From assembly GCA_029979005.1 (NCBI GenBank), contig JAPOIJ010000001.1, forward strand, positions 1 to 64,000: a DNA stretch of 64,000 nt, written 5' to 3'. This document shows, piece by piece, positions 960 through 22,666 of the stretch; position 1 is the stretch's first letter, and each line of letters begins with the position of its first letter. This DNA is from Planctomycetota bacterium (GTDB lineage: Bacteria; Planctomycetota; Planctomycetia; Pirellulales; Pirellulaceae). The notes under the pieces are model-generated. The model did not search any database. It saw only the letters and a program-made list of their open reading frames with translations, and was not told where the DNA came from. The position numbers and the translations under genes were made by a program.

Positions 960-1508
960 TTAAATTTCACCAGCAAGTCCACGTTCATAATACTTATGCG
1001 TGATCGATTCCTGATTTTCTAGTAACCAGTCGATACTAGGTTCGTTGCACATCGCCTTTCGAATCGCTTGAGTTGTGGCTTCTCGATGAATTTCGAATAG
1101 AGCTTTGTGATCGAGGTTGTCATCGGTTGCGACTCCGGGATTTAACCAAACAGAACAGATGATTCCCAGATCGTTCGCTTTTTCTTTGGGGATGAATCCC
1201 GCGCGAACTGCATCCAGGACGCCGTTGGCGATTGCTGCCTGAACGGTTCCCATCAGGATGTTTGTGTACCGAGAGCTCTTAACGGTGACTTTACTGACCA
1301 TCAGGGTTACGGGGCGGACCTGAATATCTGTATTCAGAATTGCGAATACTTTTGAGTGTCCCGCGGATTGGTTGCCGGTTAAGGTCGCGATTGCGGTGCC
1401 CACCGGACCATCGAGTTCGCCAATGACGATCTCAGGCTCAGCAGCGGTAAAAGGAGGGCCTCCCGCAATTAGGCATTCGCCGGTTCGCATTACAATTCGT
1501 TCGCTCAT
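960..1508 (-). CDS. formaldehyde-activating enzyme (Fae) family protein
   Basis: Fae-like pattern: GECLIAGGPP...EIVIGELDGPVGTAIA...HSKVFAILNTDIQVRPVTLMVSKVTVKSSRYTNILMGTVQAAIANGVLDAVRAGFIP. Confidence 0.8.
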   Translation of the reverse strand: MSERIVMRTGECLIAGGPPFTAAEPEIVIGELDGPVGTAIATLTGNQSAGHSKVFAILNTDIQVRPVTLMVSKVTVKSSRYTNILMGTVQAAIANGVLDAVRAGFIPKEKANDLGIICSVWLNPGVATDDNLDHKALFEIHREATTQAIRKAMCNEPSIDWLLENQESITHKYYERGLAGEI

Positions 1509-12083: not shown

Positions 12084-13094
12084 ATGACCCGAGAACCCAT
12101 TCTTTCAAACAATCCAGTGCCTGAAGAGGATGATCCCAACTTGCGTCCTTCGCGAATGGCCGACATGGTCGGACAGCGCGATGTAATTGCAAGATTGCAG
12201 ATTGCAATTGAAGCAGCGCGTAAGCGAAGTGATGTTCTTGGTCATGTGCTGTTTGATGGCCCTCCGGGTCTTGGTAAGACGACGTTTGCTCATTGCATTC
12301 CCCTCGAAATGGATGTGCCAGTTGATTTTTTGTCGGGCCCAAGTCTAAAGGCTCCGAAGGATCTTGTGCCGAGTTTGACTAATCTTCAGGCCAAGCAGGT
12401 GTTGTTTATCGATGAGATTCACCGGATCCCCAAATCGGTGGAAGAGTATCTCTACACGGCGATGGAAGATTTTCGGATTGACCTGATCCTCGGTGAGGGG
12501 ATCAATGCCCGGACTCACAATATGAAGTTGCAGCCGTTTACCTTAATCGGCGCGACAACGCGGGCGGGAATGTTAACTGGCCCGTTGCGTGATCGTTTTC
12601 AGATTCGAGAGCATTTGGAATTTTACAACGATGAGGATTTGACGGAAATTGTTCGCCGTAACGCGAGTAAATTGAACATTGCAATTTCGGATGATGCAGC
12701 GAGCGAAGTAGCGCTGCGAAGTCGTAGTACGCCGAGGGTTGCGAATAACCGCTTGCGGTGGGTTCGCGACTTCGCTCAGAGTCGAGCCGCAGGAGAGATT
12801 ACCGTCGAAGTAGCACGTGATGCATTGCAGATGGCCGAGATTGATACGCTTGGTCTAGATCGCCAAGATCGGAGATACCTTGATACGTTGATTCGAGTCT
12901 GCATGGGAGGCCCAACAGGCATTGGTACGATTGCTGCGACGATGAATACGGTATCGGATACGCTGGCGGACGAGGTCGAGCCGTTTTTGTTACGCAGTGA
13001 ATTGATTTTACGAACCCCTCGTGGGAGAGTGGCGACGCCCAAGGCATTTGCCCATATGAAATGTGAGATTCCCCCTGAGAACGGATTGTTTTAG
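12084..13094 (+). CDS. ruvB: Holliday junction branch migration DNA helicase RuvB
   Basis: LRPSRMADMVGQ, HVLFDGPPGLGKTTFAH, LFIDEIHRIPKSVEEYLYTAMEDFRIDL, GATTRAGMLTGPLRDRF, GPTGIGTIAATM. Confidence 0.97.
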   Translation: MTREPILSNNPVPEEDDPNLRPSRMADMVGQRDVIARLQIAIEAARKRSDVLGHVLFDGPPGLGKTTFAHCIPLEMDVPVDFLSGPSLKAPKDLVPSLTNLQAKQVLFIDEIHRIPKSVEEYLYTAMEDFRIDLILGEGINARTHNMKLQPFTLIGATTRAGMLTGPLRDRFQIREHLEFYNDEDLTEIVRRNASKLNIAISDDAASEVALRSRSTPRVANNRLRWVRDFAQSRAAGEITVEVARDALQMAEIDTLGLDRQDRRYLDTLIRVCMGGPTGIGTIAATMNTVSDTLADEVEPFLLRSELILRTPRGRVATPKAFAHMKCEIPPENGLF

Positions 13095-13361
13095 TTGATA
13101 ACGAAAGACATTTTCGAAATCAGATTAATTTTCATTTTTTGCGAAATCGTAATTTTGAGGGGCTGTCTCCGGGGTTTCGGTCAGGGCTGGCGGTCGCAGT
13201 AGCAAGCGATTTTGGTGCTTTGCCGGTTTTATACGAAAATTTTAACTGCCAAACAGGGATGTTCGGGGTTGGGGCGGGAATTGATCGCTCGCCCGTCGTT
13301 GACACCAAAATCGACGGTTCTTAGATTGACGGATCAACAAAAACTTCAACGAGGTGATGCA

Positions 13362-14273
13362 TTGACCAAGATTGCTTTTTTATTCCCCGGCCAGGGAGCG
13401 CAGACCGTAGGGATGGCGAAGGAACTCTGCGATGAGTTACCTGCAGCCAGTGATTTATTTAAGCGAGCCGCTGATCTGCTGGGCTACGATTTGGCCGATA
13501 TTTGTTTTAATGGTCCCGCGGAAAAACTAAATTCAACGGTTATTAGTCAGCCAGCCTTGTACGTCAGCAGTATGGCTGTTTTAGAGAAACTAAAGCTCGA
13601 AAATCCTGATGTTTATCAAAATTGTGAAGGCGCTGCTGGCTTAAGCCTCGGTGAATATACGGCATTGGCATTCGCCGGTGGGATGAGCTTTGAGGATGGT
13701 TTAAAGCTGGTTCAAAGACGCGGCCAGGCAATGCAGGAGGCTGCTGACGAGACCCCTAGCTCGATGGTTAGCGTTTTGGGGCTTGATCGAGAACAAACGC
13801 AAAAAGTTTGTGATGAAGCCCGGGTTGATGGAGAGGTTCTGCAAATCGCCAATCTCTTGTGCAAGGGGAATATTGCCGTTTCGGGTGGACTGGCGAGTTG
13901 TGAACGCGTTCCTGCTGTGGCAGATGCAGCGGGGGCTATGAAATCAGTTCCCCTGGCAGTCGCTGGTGCGTTTCACACACCGGTCATGGAATCGGCAGTC
14001 GGGAAGATTTCTGAGGCAATCGCCGAGGTCGAAATACAGCCGACGCGTGTACCTGTGTATTCAAACGTCGATGCCTGTCCTCACACCGATCCGGGTGAGT
14101 TTAAAGAACAGTTGGTAAAGCAAGTCTGCGCCCCAGTTTTATGGCAGGATTCAATTGAGCGAATGCTGGCGGATGGATTTGATGAGTTTTATGAGGTAGG
14201 TGTAGGCCGCGTCCTGAGAAGCCTAATGAAGCGAATTAATCGGAAGACGAAATGTTACGGCGTGCTGGATTAA
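13362..14273 (+). CDS. fabD: malonyl CoA-ACP transacylase
   Basis: IAFLFPGQGAQTVGMAKEL, GLSLGEYTALAFAG (GxSxG), AFHTPVM. Likely TTG start at 13362 after AACGAGG; the supplied ORF begins at 13212. Confidence 0.93.
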   Translation: MTKIAFLFPGQGAQTVGMAKELCDELPAASDLFKRAADLLGYDLADICFNGPAEKLNSTVISQPALYVSSMAVLEKLKLENPDVYQNCEGAAGLSLGEYTALAFAGGMSFEDGLKLVQRRGQAMQEAADETPSSMVSVLGLDREQTQKVCDEARVDGEVLQIANLLCKGNIAVSGGLASCERVPAVADAAGAMKSVPLAVAGAFHTPVMESAVGKISEAIAEVEIQPTRVPVYSNVDACPHTDPGEFKEQLVKQVCAPVLWQDSIERMLADGFDEFYEVGVGRVLRSLMKRINRKTKCYGVLD

Positions 14274-14332
14274 ATCGGATTGGCGCGTTGGGCAGAGACA
14301 AGTAATTTTTGTAAGAGAAATTTGAGGAACAA

Positions 14333-15094
14333 ATGAGTTTGGAATCGATGAAGGTTGATCTTTCTGGGCAAAATGCCATCGTTACGGGAGCTTCTCAAGG
14401 ATTAGGCCGCTCGATGGCTCTCGCCTTGGCCGGAGCTGGAGCCCGAGTTGCCTTGGTAGCGCGGAATGCTGAAAAGCTTGCCGAGACAGCGCGTTTGATT
14501 GAAGAGGCAGGCGGTTCTGCTGAGGTAATGGCCGCTGACGTCAGTCAAAAAGAGGCAATTGAGGAGATCGTCGAAAAAGTCTCGACCGAGTGGGGCAAGC
14601 TAGATATTTTGGTCAATAATGCCGGGATTACACGCGACACGCTGATGCCGATGATGACCGATGAGCAATGGGATGACGTGATTGCGGTTAATCTGCGAGG
14701 TACATTTCTGTTCACTCGCGCGGCATCGCAACGCATGATGCGTTCGCGTTATGGTCGAATCATCAATATTTCCAGCGTCTCCGGCTTGATCGGCAACGCG
14801 GGCCAAACCAATTACTCAGCTTCCAAGGCAGGAGTGATCGGGATGACTCGCAGTCTCGCTAAGGAATTGGGAAAACGGAAGGTCACTGTAAACGCGGTTG
14901 CTCCGGGGTTCATCGAGAGCGAAATGACGGAAAAACTCGGGGATGTGATACTGGGCGAGGTAAAAAAGAAGATTCCAGCCAATCGAATTGGGACTCCAGA
15001 CGACGTTGCGGCTTGCGTTCTGTTTTTAGCGAGTCCTGCTGCATCGTACGTAACTGGGCAAGTTCTGACTGTCGATGGGGGAATGACGGCCTAA
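14333..15094 (+). CDS. fabG: 3-oxoacyl-ACP reductase
   Basis: SDR features: [56 protein letters not shown]. Located between fabD and acpP. Confidence 0.95.
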
Positions 15095-15303
15095 ACTCGG
15101 GGAAAATAACCATTTTTAAGGCTAAAAAAGTGGGATTCTGGTGATGTTGCCTTGACCCTTTTTGTCGGAATCCTCTATCTTATTGCCGTTGTTCATGTTG
15201 CCACCGAGACGTTTTCGCTGTCATTGCGAACTGTTGAGGGCTGAGATGAGTAATCAACGTTAACAGTTTTCCGCAAGGTAATTTTTTAGAAGGAGGCCGA
15301 TAT

Positions 15304-15546
15304 ATGTCATCGGTCGAAGAACGCGTCGTCAACATCGTTGCTGAGCAACTTGGCGTCGAGAAAGACAAAATCAAACGAGAGTCAAATTTCGTCAATGACC
15401 TCGGAGCAGACTCACTCGACACTGTCGAGTTAGTGATGGAGCTTGAAGAGGAATTTGATATCAACATTCCTGACGAATCTGCAGAGAAAATTCAGACGGT
15501 CGGTGAAGCGATTAGTCATATTGAGAGCTCTTCTGCGACTGCTTAA
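15304..15546 (+). CDS. acpP: acyl carrier protein
   Basis: [27 protein letters not shown], the phosphopantetheine DSL motif. Confidence 0.97.
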
Positions 15547-15598
15547 TTGCAGATGCTGAAATTAAATTGATTCGTTGCAAAACGGTCTTTAAAACAAT

Positions 15599-15636
15599 CC
15601 GCAGGATGGCATTTGGTTATCCTGCGGTTATTTTTT
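15599..15636 (+). terminator. intrinsic terminator/attenuator between acpP and fabF
   Basis: CCGCAGGAT (15599-15607) / ATCCTGCGG (15619-15627) followed by TTATTTTTT. Confidence 0.8.
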
Positions 15637-15802
15637 AGATTTTACGTTTCTGAGAATTGGTTGGCGGTTTCGAATTGAGTAATCTCGAAGCGAAGGTTGC
15701 AGCGATTTCATTGGAATTATCATTGAGTAAAGATGAACTCATCCGAACGGGAGGGGTGAGTTTTACAGCGAAAATAACAGCAGGGAATTCGGGGTTAGTT
15801 TC

Positions 15803-17047
15803 ATGGCGCGACGCGTGGTCATTACTGGATGGGGATTAGTCAATTCACTCAGTTGTGATGTAGACGATTGTTGGAACAGAATTTTGAATGGTGAGAGCGG
15901 GATCCATCGAATCAAGCTGTTTGAGGTTGATGACATCAAAGTGCAAATTGGCGGTGATGTCTACGATTGGAACGCGAACGATGTGATTGGCCAAAAAGAA
16001 GCCAACAAGATTGATCGGTATTCCCAGTTTGCAATGGTTGCGGCGGCCAGTGCTTTCGACAGTTCGGGGATTGATCCTGTTGGCAGTGAAAATGCTGCTC
16101 GCTATGGTTGCATCCTTGGTTCAGGAATCGGTGGGATGACCACGATTTCGGAACAGATGACCCGTCTGGTTCAGAAGGGGCCGAGCCGGGTTTCACCGAT
16201 GACCATTCCCAAATTAATGCTCAACGCCGGTGGTGGCAATATTGCGATTCGCCACGGCTTGCGGGGCCCGAATTACAGTGTTGCGACGGCTTGCGCGAGT
16301 GCCACGAATGCGATGGGCAACGCTTGGGAATTGGTACGATCCAACGTATGTGATCTTGCGGTTACCGGCGGAAGCGAGGCGGCTTTGAGTCGTCTGGCAA
16401 TGTCCGCGTTCGCAAATATGAAAGCTCTGTCTTATTCAAAAGAAGATCCAGCCACGGTAAGTCGTCCATTTGATGCCGGGCGAGATGGTTTTGTATTTTC
16501 CGAAGGTGCGGGGGTGCTGATTTTTGAAGAGTTGGAGCATGCGAAGGCTCGCGGTGCGAACATCCTCGCCGAAGTGGTTGGATTTGGAACCTCCTGTGAT
16601 GCCGGCCATATCACTTCGCCCGATGACACGGGGTCTGGCGCCGCGATGGCTATGAAAATGGCCTTGCAGGATGCGGGCCTAGAGCCAAGCGAAATTGACT
16701 ATATCAATGCCCATGGAACCAGCACACCGTTGGGAGATAAGGCTGAGACCCGTGCTGTGAAGACAATTTTTGGAGAACATGCGTACAATTTGAGTATCAG
16801 CAGCACGAAAAGCCAGTTGGGACACTCCCTCGGAGCGAGTGGCGGAATCGAGTTGATCGTCTCGATCAAGGCGCTGCAGGAAGGCGTGATTCCACCGACG
16901 ATTAACCTGAACACGCCAGATCCTGATTGCGATTTGGACTACACACCGAATGTACCGAAGCAACGCGACATCACTTACGCAATGAGCAATAGTTTTGGGT
17001 TTGGTGGCCACAATGCATCAATCATTGTTAAGAAATTCAGCGAATAA
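15803..17047 (+). CDS. fabF: beta-ketoacyl-ACP synthase II
   Basis: RRVVITGWGLVNSL, ATACASATNAMG, NAHGTSTPLGDKAET, SSTKSQLGHSLGASGG. Confidence 0.95.
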   Translation: MARRVVITGWGLVNSLSCDVDDCWNRILNGESGIHRIKLFEVDDIKVQIGGDVYDWNANDVIGQKEANKIDRYSQFAMVAAASAFDSSGIDPVGSENAARYGCILGSGIGGMTTISEQMTRLVQKGPSRVSPMTIPKLMLNAGGGNIAIRHGLRGPNYSVATACASATNAMGNAWELVRSNVCDLAVTGGSEAALSRLAMSAFANMKALSYSKEDPATVSRPFDAGRDGFVFSEGAGVLIFEELEHAKARGANILAEVVGFGTSCDAGHITSPDDTGSGAAMAMKMALQDAGLEPSEIDYINAHGTSTPLGDKAETRAVKTIFGEHAYNLSISSTKSQLGHSLGASGGIELIVSIKALQEGVIPPTINLNTPDPDCDLDYTPNVPKQRDITYAMSNSFGFGGHNASIIVKKFSE

Positions 17048-17639: not shown

Positions 17640-19430
17640 TTAAAACCAGGGTTGTCCGCCGGATCGTTCCAGTTGTGATTCGACGTGAGCCAAGTGAGTG
17701 GACGTATATCTGTCGCGAATCATCTGTCGGGTATCAGCTTCGTTCATAAATCCGTCTGAGTATCCAGGACAAGCGAGGTCGATCGTGCCTCGAGCGGCGT
17801 GAACAAAATGCCTGATCAGGTCGATAGGGTCTTCGTCTCCGACAGCACAGCGAACTGTGGTCGACGTTAAACCCGAATCTTTGAGTGCGTCTTCATTCAA
17901 TTCAGAATGCGTGGTCAGCGACGGGCAGCTCACGATGGTGTTGGATTGCCCAAGGCTTATCATATGGCCGAACGTTGGGGAAAGGGAGTCGAAGAATCTT
18001 TGAAAGGCATCCCGTTGGATATCGCCCATGTCAAAAGTGAATAGGGGAGCAGGCAGGCCCAGGTAGAGGTTTTCTTCTCTCAGTTCTGAGTTGGCGTTGC
18101 CTTGAACACCGTTGCAGTTTACCTGGATGTCCGCGTGGGAGTTCAGGAAGTCGGCGAGAATCTGCGTGTTGATGCACTTTCTCAGCATTCGCACGGTTAG
18201 TGTTTTCATGCCCTGCATCACCTCAAACGCGGCATCAGCGTTGAGGAAGGCACCTTTGATGTAATAAACATTCCAGAACATTGTTTCGTCCCATGAACGC
18301 CCATTCATTGATTGGCCTTTCGGAATAAACATGTCGTTGTTTTTTCCAATCACGCAACCAGCGATGACGGCGCCGCAACCACTCAGGTCTTTGGTGTAGC
18401 TATGAATCACGAAGTCAGGTCTTTCGTCCGGATCTTTGCGGTTGAGGGGGCGGTAAAGGAATGGGGTACCAACCGTCGCATCAAGAATGACCTTAAGATC
18501 GTGTTGATGAGCGATTTTAGAAATGCCGGCCACGTCCAGTACATAGCCTTGTGGGTTGCTTGGAGACTCAAGGTAAATGTAAATTTTTCTGCCCTGAGCG
18601 ATTCGGTCGGCATATTTTTTCTGGACTGATGCCAGGAATGGCGCGAATTCTTCTGAGGTGTAGCCGTCGAATGTTTCGACTGAGATTTCCAGGTTGCCAT
18701 CTTTGGCATACCAGTCGTGAATCAGTTGGTAGGCTCCACCGTAAATATTTCGACTGGTAATGAGGATGTCATCGCGGCCCAAAAGATGGGCAAGGGCTGA
18801 GTCGATTGCCGCCATCCCGCTATTGAAATTCCAAGCCATGTATTCCGCTGCATAGTCCCCTGCTTCAAGATCGACGATGTGATTGGCAAGGCAGACACTT
18901 GTTGGGTTGAGGAGTCTCGAGTAGATCTCCAGCATAAGTTCTTTGCCGCGAAAGGCGTCCTCAATCCATTCGGCACATGCGTAAATGTAAGTCGCCGTGC
19001 GAGTGATCACGGGGGTAGCTGAAAAAAGAGCCGTGACGTTGTCGAATACCGGGTAGGGCCCTTTTGCCGCCATGGTTTCGGATTTGTAGCCCAGTGATTG
19101 GTAACTTTTTCGAAACGGATGCTGCAGCGTGTCAAGAATTTTTGCAAGTTGGAAGGAAAGGAACTTTTTCGCGTTGAAGCGTTGGATGCGATCGTTTTGA
19201 TCCAGCGAATTCATGGATTCGAGGGTAAGTTGCCAGAGGTGTGAGATGTCACCTTGAGACTCGTACATGCGTTCAACGACCCGCGAAAGAGTCTGGCCAT
19301 ATTCGGTGTCGGGCTCGATATGAAAATGTTTCAGCTGCTCAGCTGTTAGTTCTGCTGCAGTGGTCGCGGACGATGTGTTACGTTTTGGCGACAACGTTTT
19401 CATCTGATCGGTTCTTGCGTCTGACGACAT
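17640..19430 (-). CDS. PLP-dependent Cys/Met metabolism enzyme (cystathionine gamma-synthase-like), long form
   Basis: NFNSGMAAIDSALAHLLGRDDILITSRNIYGGAYQLI; YLESPSNPQGYVLDVAGI; IHSYTKDLSGCG (PLP lysine context). Confidence 0.8.
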   Translation of the reverse strand: MSSDARTDQMKTLSPKRNTSSATTAAELTAEQLKHFHIEPDTEYGQTLSRVVERMYESQGDISHLWQLTLESMNSLDQNDRIQRFNAKKFLSFQLAKILDTLQHPFRKSYQSLGYKSETMAAKGPYPVFDNVTALFSATPVITRTATYIYACAEWIEDAFRGKELMLEIYSRLLNPTSVCLANHIVDLEAGDYAAEYMAWNFNSGMAAIDSALAHLLGRDDILITSRNIYGGAYQLIHDWYAKDGNLEISVETFDGYTSEEFAPFLASVQKKYADRIAQGRKIYIYLESPSNPQGYVLDVAGISKIAHQHDLKVILDATVGTPFLYRPLNRKDPDERPDFVIHSYTKDLSGCGAVIAGCVIGKNNDMFIPKGQSMNGRSWDETMFWNVYYIKGAFLNADAAFEVMQGMKTLTVRMLRKCINTQILADFLNSHADIQVNCNGVQGNANSELREENLYLGLPAPLFTFDMGDIQRDAFQRFFDSLSPTFGHMISLGQSNTIVSCPSLTTHSELNEDALKDSGLTSTTVRCAVGDEDPIDLIRHFVHAARGTIDLACPGYSDGFMNEADTRQMIRDRYTSTHLAHVESQLERSGGQPWF

Positions 19431-19600: not shown

Positions 19601-20626
19601 TTATCCCAACGCTTTGTTCACATAATGAAGTTGTTCTGGGAATAGAGGGGCGATCGCAGCGGGTGGAAGTTGGGTTGTTTTGTCAATCTGTGCGCCGCTT
19701 GTGCCGCCGTGTTGGCTGGAAATAAACGAGGCGCCAATTAGCGAAGAGCCCATAAAATTGGCTCCCCTTAAATCCGCCCCTGAGAAATCTGCTCCTTCCA
19801 AATCGGCGTTTAGGAAAACGGCATTGGAAAGGTTCGCATTGTGGAAATGAGCATTCGAGAGATTGGCGTTGGTGAAATCAGCGTTTGAGAGATCTGTTCC
19901 AGAAAAATTGGCGTCTCGAAGCGAAGCGTTGTTTGCGTTTAATCCGGCGAGATTGCGTTGCGACGCGTCGATGCTGCGAAGTTCTCGGTAGGAGAAGTCT
20001 CGTGTTTCAATCAACTGTAAGGAAGTGCGTCGGTCAATCGTGGGGGCCATGTAGCGCTGTTCTTGCCAGGGGTCAGCTTCATTGTGATAGCCAGACTCGG
20101 CTTCCCAGAACCCGAGTCGGTCCGTCGAGAGTAGCTCGATCTGTTCAAGCCATTTTACACTTTTGTAGAAGTACCTTGATTCGACAATGTTTCGAATTGG
20201 GCCACCATGAGATGTGTCGATCGGTTCCCCGTTGACCCCGGTCGCGATTAAAGTATTGAGATCGATTGCTGTTTCGAGAATAAGGGAACTCGAATGTTTG
20301 CGTTTTGATCTCGCTTGAAATGAAACGAATCTAGCGTTTGGTTTGATGCCCGTTGAAGAAAGCAGGTCTTTGAGCAGGACTCCCGAGAATGTTGTGTCTA
20401 GCATTGACCATCGGGTGACGCAGTGAATGTCCATTGTCTGTGTGGTTTGTGGAAATGCGCTTAATTGTTCGAGACTCAAAGAGATTGGGGTATCGACTTC
20501 CCCCTTTATTGTAAGTGACCACGGGGTGTCGGTTTCAGTTGGTAGGCGTTCACCGATAATCGGCCATTTTCCGGGAGCGACTAATTGCTGGCCGGGTGGG
20601 ATTCTGTTCTCACGAGTCGTCGTCAT
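19601..20626 (-). CDS. sulfite-oxidase-like molybdopterin-dependent oxidoreductase fused to C-terminal pentapeptide repeats
   Basis: MDIHCVTRWSMLDTTFSGV (Mo-ligand Cys context), HGGPIRNIVESRYFYKSVKWLEQIELL, GFWEAESGYHNEADPWQEQRY; then about 15 A(D/N)LxxAxF pentapeptides. Confidence 0.85.
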   Translation of the reverse strand: MTTTRENRIPPGQQLVAPGKWPIIGERLPTETDTPWSLTIKGEVDTPISLSLEQLSAFPQTTQTMDIHCVTRWSMLDTTFSGVLLKDLLSSTGIKPNARFVSFQARSKRKHSSSLILETAIDLNTLIATGVNGEPIDTSHGGPIRNIVESRYFYKSVKWLEQIELLSTDRLGFWEAESGYHNEADPWQEQRYMAPTIDRRTSLQLIETRDFSYRELRSIDASQRNLAGLNANNASLRDANFSGTDLSNADFTNANLSNAHFHNANLSNAVFLNADLEGADFSGADLRGANFMGSSLIGASFISSQHGGTSGAQIDKTTQLPPAAIAPLFPEQLHYVNKALG

Positions 20627-20893: not shown

Positions 20894-22015
20894 TTAGGAA
20901 TTGTCGTCGTTGGTGATAGGTTCCATGACTTTTGTATTCCTTTCAACTGCGAGGACAGTCGTTCGCTGGTGTGTGCCATCGCGGCTGGAGGCAACGACGG
21001 GAAGTACCTGTCGGCGATCTGGGAGTTCAAGCCGCAGTGCAAACGATCCATCGGGCTGTAGGCGAATGGGTTCTCCGGCCACCGTAACTGTTGCTCTTGG
21101 ATCGGTCGCACCGTGAACAATCATGTGGGCGTCGACCTGGAAGTTGAATCGCTGCCCGTTGGCGTTAACACCTGACCCCAATCTTTCGAATGCGGGGGCA
21201 TGCATGGGTTGAAGGGCTTTCTCTTCAAACACCTCTTGTAGATCTGCGGAGACTGTTCTTGGGTCGTGGCCGCCGCTCAGGGCGTAGTACTTCTCAACAT
21301 CATTGGTAATATCTGTCCAGTGTTCGCCTTCTGGGGAACTTCCCGGAGGCGGGCACACCTGATTACTTTTCGAAATCAGATGGAATTTTTCGCCCGGCGC
21401 GGTATAGCCGATGGCGATGCGGTAGTTTTTGCTGGGTTCAGTAATGTTGACGTACCAATTGTTAACTCCGCTGTGTATTTCAATTTCTTGAACAACTTTT
21501 TCGACAGAGTTGGTGTTACCGTCGCTGGTAATTTCCAAAAGTCTAAGGACAGGTTTGGCGTTATGCCAAAATCCGGTCATTGCGACTTTAGCCCGCTGGA
21601 CGGTTGCTCGAGTGACTTCCCAATACGCCTGAAGCCAGAACGAGTCACGGACGATTAGAATGACGCGGTCACGCTCGGGAGGCGTATTGCGTCTGGCCAT
21701 GCCAACGGCGGAAGAGAGGTTTTTTAGGTTTTCTTGTTTCTCGCGTTCGATTCGGATTTTCTTTGCGATCGCAGAATCAGATTGTTTTGGCTTTTTTCTG
21801 GCGGTAGAAGCTTTTGCGGCCCGGGTTGGCTTGGCAGTGGCCTTGGTCTTTTTGCGGGTTCCGGCTTTGGCTTTCGCCTTCTGTTTTGCGACCTTTAAAA
21901 GAGCTTTGACGAGCTCATCTTTTCGCATGGAATGCCAACCGGCAACGCCCTTTTCCTTGGCCATTTGGGCGAGTTCTTTTGATTTTTGAGACTCTAGATT
22001 CGCTGCAGTAATCAA
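20894..22015 (-). CDS. DUF4912 domain protein with Rho_N-like N-terminus and Lys/Ala-rich linker
   Basis: ELAQMAKEKGVAGWHSMRKDELVKALLK (Rho_N/SAP-like), KAKAGTRKKTKATAKPTRAAKAS linker, DRVILIVRDSFWLQAYWEVT (DUF4912-like). Start uncertain: possible TTG at 22015; the supplied ORF extends to 22300. Confidence 0.7.
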   Translation of the reverse strand: MITAANLESQKSKELAQMAKEKGVAGWHSMRKDELVKALLKVAKQKAKAKAGTRKKTKATAKPTRAAKASTARKKPKQSDSAIAKKIRIEREKQENLKNLSSAVGMARRNTPPERDRVILIVRDSFWLQAYWEVTRATVQRAKVAMTGFWHNAKPVLRLLEITSDGNTNSVEKVVQEIEIHSGVNNWYVNITEPSKNYRIAIGYTAPGEKFHLISKSNQVCPPPGSSPEGEHWTDITNDVEKYYALSGGHDPRTVSADLQEVFEEKALQPMHAPAFERLGSGVNANGQRFNFQVDAHMIVHGATDPRATVTVAGEPIRLQPDGSFALRLELPDRRQVLPVVASSRDGTHQRTTVLAVERNTKVMEPITNDDNS

Positions 22016-22060
22016 GTTTCGTACTCCGTGACGCGACCCTGGGGGCGTCGAATTTGCGTA

Positions 22061-22086
22061 TTGGAAAGCTCCTGTTGGAAAGCTCC
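22061..22086. repeat. 12-bp direct repeat (x2), 2-bp spacer
   Basis: ttggaaagctcc-tg-ttggaaagctcc. Confidence 0.9.
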
Positions 22087-22666
22087 AATACTTAGTCCCG
22101 GCTTTGCGGAGTCCAATCCGAAGTAGGAAATAAATTGGTAATCGACCGTATCCCTTGCGGTCGCTGACCTGCGTCGAGCAATTCAAGATGAAAAGTACGC
22201 AGATCCTTGGCGTCGGGCGCTGTCTGAGAACTGGGGAAGGCAAAGCTACCGCGATTACCGCTGAAGTATTAAAAGCCGCCCGTGATCTTGAAACGTCCAC
22301 CTCGCTTGCTCAAATTTTAGTTGAAAAATGACTAAAAAGCAAACGTTTTGGCGTTATCTCGGTCGCTTTCGTCCCTTTTGAGGTCAGCCTAAGTGTTTTA
22401 ATCGTAAGAGCTTACGCTTTTGCCATAGGCGTTATCTTGAATTCCGCGGGGATTCATGGTGAAGTAAATTACTTTCGCAATTCCTCATCGCCAATTCATT
22501 TCTTTAAGTTGTTGTTGTGTAGTTGGTTATGTCGAGATTGTGAAAACTTTCTCAATCTTTTTGGGTGCGGGCTTGTGGGTTGAGATACCAGTGATTACAT
22601 TACCTCGAAAGGGTTTTTCACTCGCAAAAAAACCACCAATCTTACAGTCGTGGCAGGTCAAAAACG

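Follow-up and report, generated by a model that had tools for sequence, protein, structure and literature searches.

A sulfite oxidase-fold molybdenum domain fused to a pentapeptide-repeat helix in Planctomycetota and other bacteria

The window, the 64,000-nucleotide stretch of Planctomycetota (Pirellulaceae) DNA that was analyzed, carries on its minus strand an intact ORF of 341 codons running from an ATG at 20626 to a stop at 19601 (19601..20626). The first-pass annotation had these coordinates right but gave no strand. The encoded protein of 341 amino acids (aa) joins a molybdenum (Mo) domain of the sulfite oxidase (SUOX) fold to a predicted pentapeptide beta-helix. Residues 32 to 174 (20105..20533, minus strand) matched Oxidored_molyb (PF00174, E=3.7e-37) with 128 bits, above the curated Pfam cut-off of 24, and the second half matched Pentapeptide (PF00805, E=7.6e-34) with 115 bits against a cut-off of 20.2. 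With both families so far above their cut-offs, the first-pass annotation was right to place a sulfite oxidase-like Mo domain and a pentapeptide block in one ORF, and the motifs HCVTRWS, HGGPIR, and YHNEADPWQEQRY were all found in the protein. The repeat block also stood, but not the proposed count of about 15 pentapeptides or their span of 19690 to 19950, since PF00805, the strand pattern of the AlphaFold2 model, and the repeat register delimited 19 consecutive in-phase pentapeptides at residues 209 to 303 (19718..20002, minus strand). The run is uninterrupted from RDFSY to ASFIS, and from residue 241 its central position alternates between Phe and Leu. It is followed by a loop and then by a C-terminal helix (residues 330 to 340; 19607..19639, minus strand), recognized from the model and from the conserved pattern L328-P330-Q332-(F/Y)335.

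Searches with the Pfam dimerization family Mo-co_dimer (PF03404) gave no match in the window protein up to E=1, the pentapeptide repeats being found at that place, and no heme domain was found with Pfam. By eye, the N terminus, MTTTRENRIPPGQQLVAPGKW, contains neither an RR motif nor a hydrophobic stretch, and since no export signal is visible, the protein is probably cytosolic.

The structural model that had been proposed as a check was confident across both domains (AlphaFold2 pLDDT of 95.7 and pTM of 0.90), which suggests that they hold a defined arrangement. In the repeat region the model has one short strand per five residues, mostly with a pLDDT above 95, and the repeats are predicted to form a right-handed quadrilateral beta-helix of about 4.75 coils. 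In Foldseek searches, the best PDB match for the Mo half was Escherichia coli YedY/MsrP (1xdy, E=2.3e-13), followed by sulfite dehydrogenases, and the repeat half matched pentapeptide proteins. No solved structure spanning both domains was found in the PDB by sequence or by Foldseek, where the best TM-score by query length was 0.43. The literature searched, which left most subscription journals outside, gave no description of pentapeptide repeats linked to an enzyme of the sulfite oxidase (SO) family, and nothing relevant on YuiH together with sulfite oxidase. Both parts thus belong to known families, their combination is new as far as the literature and the PDB were searched, and the initial doubt that this is a standard architecture was justified.

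A six-frame search found the full-length fusion in 40 of 100 related genomes, the window's own included, with the other full-length relatives being 45 to 94% identical to the window protein at E values below 1e-90. The carriers belong to the genus of the window, to other genera, and to other families of the same order, and they include three single-contig genomes (G025, G046, and G083). Each of the 39 fusion proteins in alignment A3 matched both Pfam families, which, together with the full-length occurrence in 40 genomes, indicates that the two-domain protein is not due to chance. Conservation of the fusion, which the first-pass annotation had left to be checked, was thereby established, and the assembly artifact joining two ORFs that it had considered is ruled out by the 40 related genomes, single-contig ones among them.

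In a scan of GTDB species genomes, the contigs with homologs of the fusion were assigned to about ten phyla, although many of the contigs from other phyla are metagenome bins, so that single phylum assignments may be wrong. Rhodopirellula rubra and R. europaea are among the planctomycete carriers. The titles of the non-planctomycete contigs include Acidobacteria, Verrucomicrobia, Nevskia and other Proteobacteria, Anaerolineales (Chloroflexi), Acidimicrobiia, Zixibacteria, Tectomicrobia, Myxococcota, and Fraserbacteria. The fusion is patchy outside Planctomycetota, occurring in 10 of the 85 genomes from the order to which a Nevskia contig belongs and in 1 of the 199 from the phylum of an Acidobacteria contig. 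The prospect that it would prove widespread and already characterized was therefore realized only in its first part, and there with this patchiness; no characterized example was found in the literature searched. As judged by the MoaA C-terminal domain (PF06463), the host is able to synthesize molybdopterin: the domain was found in the window's genome (G000, contig C281) and in 91 of the 100 relatives, and MoaA was found in 11 of 13 fusion genomes that were reached via contigs titled as other phyla.

No relative of the fusion was confirmed in viral contigs. Plasmid relatives of the Mo domain were matched in 251 records, for example NC_009620.1 (Sinorhizobium medicae). The best of these cover 56 to 63% of the query and are without an annotated gene in the PLSDB table, which is incomplete. 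None of the 251 records covers 80% of the query, and no full-length fusion was found on plasmids. A defense gene was considered and dropped, there being no PADLOC match.

Stand-alone sulfite oxidase-like oxidoreductases of about 200 aa belong to the same Mo-domain family and are about 41 to 47% identical to the window protein (alignment A2). The SO family includes a group called "uncharacterized, single subunit enzymes" (PMC7759655), and the stand-alone relatives probably belong to it. When the Mo domain alone was used for a maximum-likelihood tree (156 rows and 191 columns, with the closest stand-alone relatives only), one branch with support of 100/99 separated 78 fusions from 78 stand-alone proteins. 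A single fusion clade is what a single fusion event would be expected to leave, and the fusion looks to have arisen once, through addition of the pentapeptide helix at the C terminus. For the sampled rows, the same clade rules out several independent fusions. A quick tree built from the repeats and the C-terminal part alone gave the same three major groups as the Mo-domain tree. In four close pairs, dN/dS of the repeat region was 0.11, 0.07, 0.13, and 0.34; the corresponding Mo-domain values were 0.14, 0.10, 0.12, and 0.22. Purifying selection on the repeat region indicates that the helix is kept by selection, and it rules out a recently fused, decaying repeat domain.

The two groups have in common the invariant motifs HCVT-W, G-P-R, Y-KS-K, and D-R, and the presumed Mo ligand, Cys69 of HCVTRWS (20420..20422, minus strand), is invariant in both. 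The stand-alone proteins differ from the fusions in being without the repeat domain and in residues of the Mo domain itself. Position 111 (20294..20296, minus strand) is His in 78/78 fusions but Tyr, Trp, or Phe in 78/78 stand-alone proteins. Position 154, in the YFYKSxKW motif (20165..20167, minus strand), is Tyr in 77 of the 78 fusions, with one gap, but Trp in all 78 stand-alone proteins, and position 114 is Ser in fusions versus Asn in stand-alone proteins. Of the 100 relatives, 40 have the fusion and 11 have the stand-alone form, and no genome has the two together (hypergeometric p of about 0.002, a hand calculation that ignores kinship), which hints at related roles. Three other genomes (G187, G278, and G381) carry both, so the two forms are not simply interchangeable.

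We considered which known enzyme the fusion most resembles. The Mo-domain fold and the Mo-ligand Cys are common to the fusion and to the sulfite oxidases/dehydrogenases (SorA, SorT, and SoxC), but the sulfite oxidases carry an Ig-like dimerization domain where the fusion has the pentapeptide helix. In chicken sulfite oxidase, the dimerization domain is reported to supply an Arg to the sulfite pocket. The scores against the NCBIfam models of SorA, SorT, and SoxC were 50.5, 25.8, and 57.5 bits, respectively, below the cut-offs of 600, 570, and 420. The best NCBIfam match was MsrP, with 72.6 bits, in line with the best fold match of the Mo half (1xdy). MsrP (YedY) of E. coli is like the fusion in its SUOX fold, in the CVxxWS context of its Cys, and in being without a dimerization domain, as reflected in the missing PF03404 match. 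The fusion could accordingly be pictured as a cytosolic repair reductase like this methionine-sulfoxide reductase, its helix docking oxidized client proteins or a reductase, and the scattered gene contexts described below would fit such a housekeeping role. However, 72.6 bits is far under the MsrP cut-off of 207. In the alignment with 1xdq (E. coli YedY/MsrP), Cys69 falls on the Cys of RCVEAWS, but Cys-Val is followed by Thr-Arg in the fusion (CVTRWS) where 1xdq has Glu-Ala (CVEAWS). MsrP is also, according to the literature, exported by Tat and partnered by MsrQ, whereas the fusion has no visible signal, carries the added beta-helix, and has no MsrQ-like neighbor among the neighboring genes scanned. 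We therefore regard an MsrP-like role as unlikely.

A Foldseek match to PruR (7kom, TM-score by target length of 0.74) raised the further thought that the Mo domain has turned from an enzyme into a pterin-binding sensor. The fae-mtdB pathway, whose genes are discussed below, uses a pterin, tetrahydromethanopterin, as its coenzyme. PruR proteins, however, have secretion signals and, in place of the Mo-ligand Cys, a Trp (PMC13259868), while Cys69 is invariant in the fusions, making a PruR-like sensor highly improbable. Because the defining features of sulfite oxidase, MsrP, and PruR were each looked for and not found, we do not class the fusion with any of them.

The repeat half is like HetL, Qnr, MfpA, and the Rfr-domain proteins in its uninterrupted A(D/N)(L/F)xx repeats and predicted quadrilateral beta-helix. 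The matched pentapeptide proteins stand alone or join other domains, whereas the helix of the fusion sits on a molybdoenzyme and has conserved residues of its own (N255, D275, E277, and G278). The fusion scored at most 33.5 bits against the Qnr models of NCBIfam (cut-offs of 240 to 500) and 19.9 against MfpA (cut-off of 360). The conserved residues form a stripe along one face of the helix, comprising R237, N255/S257/N258, D275/E277/G278, and S295 of pentapeptides 6, 10, 14, and 18 (19742..19918, minus strand). With the mean of each repeat position removed, this face was the most conserved of the four (block permutation p=0.02), a single weak p value that, since the conserved positions had been seen beforehand and kinship was ignored, is a lead and not proof. 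The role as a scaffold or docking surface put forward at first pass gains from the conserved face and the confident model, but packing within the molecule or capping of the active site fits equally well.

No neighbor of the fusion is universal, and fae-mtdB and a pyridoxal phosphate (PLP) enzyme are adjacent in some Planctomycetota only. The arrangement fae (formaldehyde-activating enzyme), mtdB (methylene-tetrahydromethanopterin dehydrogenase, Mpt_N family), and then the fusion, with all three genes on one strand, recurs in 11 separate Planctomycetota lineages that represent at least four families of the order. The PLP enzyme, of the Cys/Met-metabolism family (17640..19430, minus strand; PF01053, E=7.6e-60), is directly 3' of the fusion on the same strand in 18 loci, including that of the window, with gaps down to 6 to 9 bp, and within the genus 18/18 fusion genomes have its gene, versus 2/10 of those without the fusion. 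These arrangements would suit a dedicated one-carbon/sulfur enzyme that works with Fae, MtdB, and the PLP enzyme on a sulfur product released with formaldehyde, e.g., sulfite from C1-sulfur compounds. A decayed fusion at the matching place in G089 points the same way: a frame-broken remnant lies downstream of mtdB (L183:4150-4450), next to a gene whose product looks secreted, and an intact fusion occupies the matching position in G073, a family-mate of G089.

Other counts, however, argue against such a dedicated enzyme. Fae was found in 0 of the 13 fusion genomes reached via contigs titled as other phyla, which weakens the case for an obligatory enzyme of the formaldehyde pathway, and it was found in 91 of the 100 relatives, only 40 of which have the fusion. 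The fae-mtdB pair also occurs at several loci without an adjacent fusion, and in the window's own genome the canonical pair is on another contig (G000, C196). The PLP gene is patchy in the order (35 of the 100 genomes), and outside the genus it was found in 6/22 genomes with the fusion and 9/50 without, a lack of association that rules out an obligatory PLP partner. The absence of Fae from those 13 genomes and the PLP counts outside the genus indicate that both links are lineage-specific, and the neighbors of the fusion outside Pirellulales belong to families unrelated to one another. We therefore consider a dedicated one-carbon/sulfur role doubtful.

Several other features of the window were recorded. 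The PLP enzyme has an unusual N-terminal extension of about 130 residues and scores far below the NCBIfam cut-offs shown. The fusion is separated by about 18 kb from a second, divergent Fae homolog (960-1508, minus strand; 124.7 bits against a TIGR03126 cut-off of 118.05). The gene that immediately precedes the fusion (20894-22300, minus strand), a placement shared by two close relatives, encodes a protein with Rho_N, DUF4912, and weak glucodextranase-B-like domains. On the plus strand, RuvB precedes a run of acyl-transferase-, SDR-, and ketoacyl-synthase-like genes (12084-17047), apparently a fatty acid synthesis cluster.

As the best explanation, to which we assign a probability of roughly 45%, we propose that the fusion is a cytosolic, single-subunit Mo oxidoreductase in which the beta-helix takes the place of the dimerization domain and serves in docking or in capping the active site. 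Compared with the stand-alone proteins of about 200 aa, the pentapeptide helix would have been added once at the C terminus and inherited with the Mo domain since, and the Mo domain may have changed along with it (His111 and Tyr154). Held firmly against the Mo domain, the helix most likely forms a rigid platform, and its conserved face (R237, N255/S257/N258, D275/E277, and S295) would either cap the active-site side of the Mo domain or dock a protein supplying electrons or substrate. At a Cys-ligated Mo center, the enzyme may catalyze two-electron oxo transfer on a small S- or N-oxide, a sulfite-like compound, or a protein-bound one. More tentatively, the fusions may constitute a distinct molybdoenzyme clade in which the helix has functionally replaced the dimerization domain and completes or gates the active site or docks a client, with His111 and Tyr154 marking a specificity of its own.

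To our knowledge, pentapeptide-repeat helices are common, and a role for them beyond DNA mimicry and regulation is rarely known. Here, one event has apparently coupled such a helix permanently to a redox enzyme whose fold is well understood, in a sizeable uncharacterized molybdoenzyme clade that extends over two-fifths of the related genomes and has a partial link to formaldehyde oxidation genes. Since the sister group is without the helix, the two groups offer a clean natural comparison of what the helix does for the enzyme.
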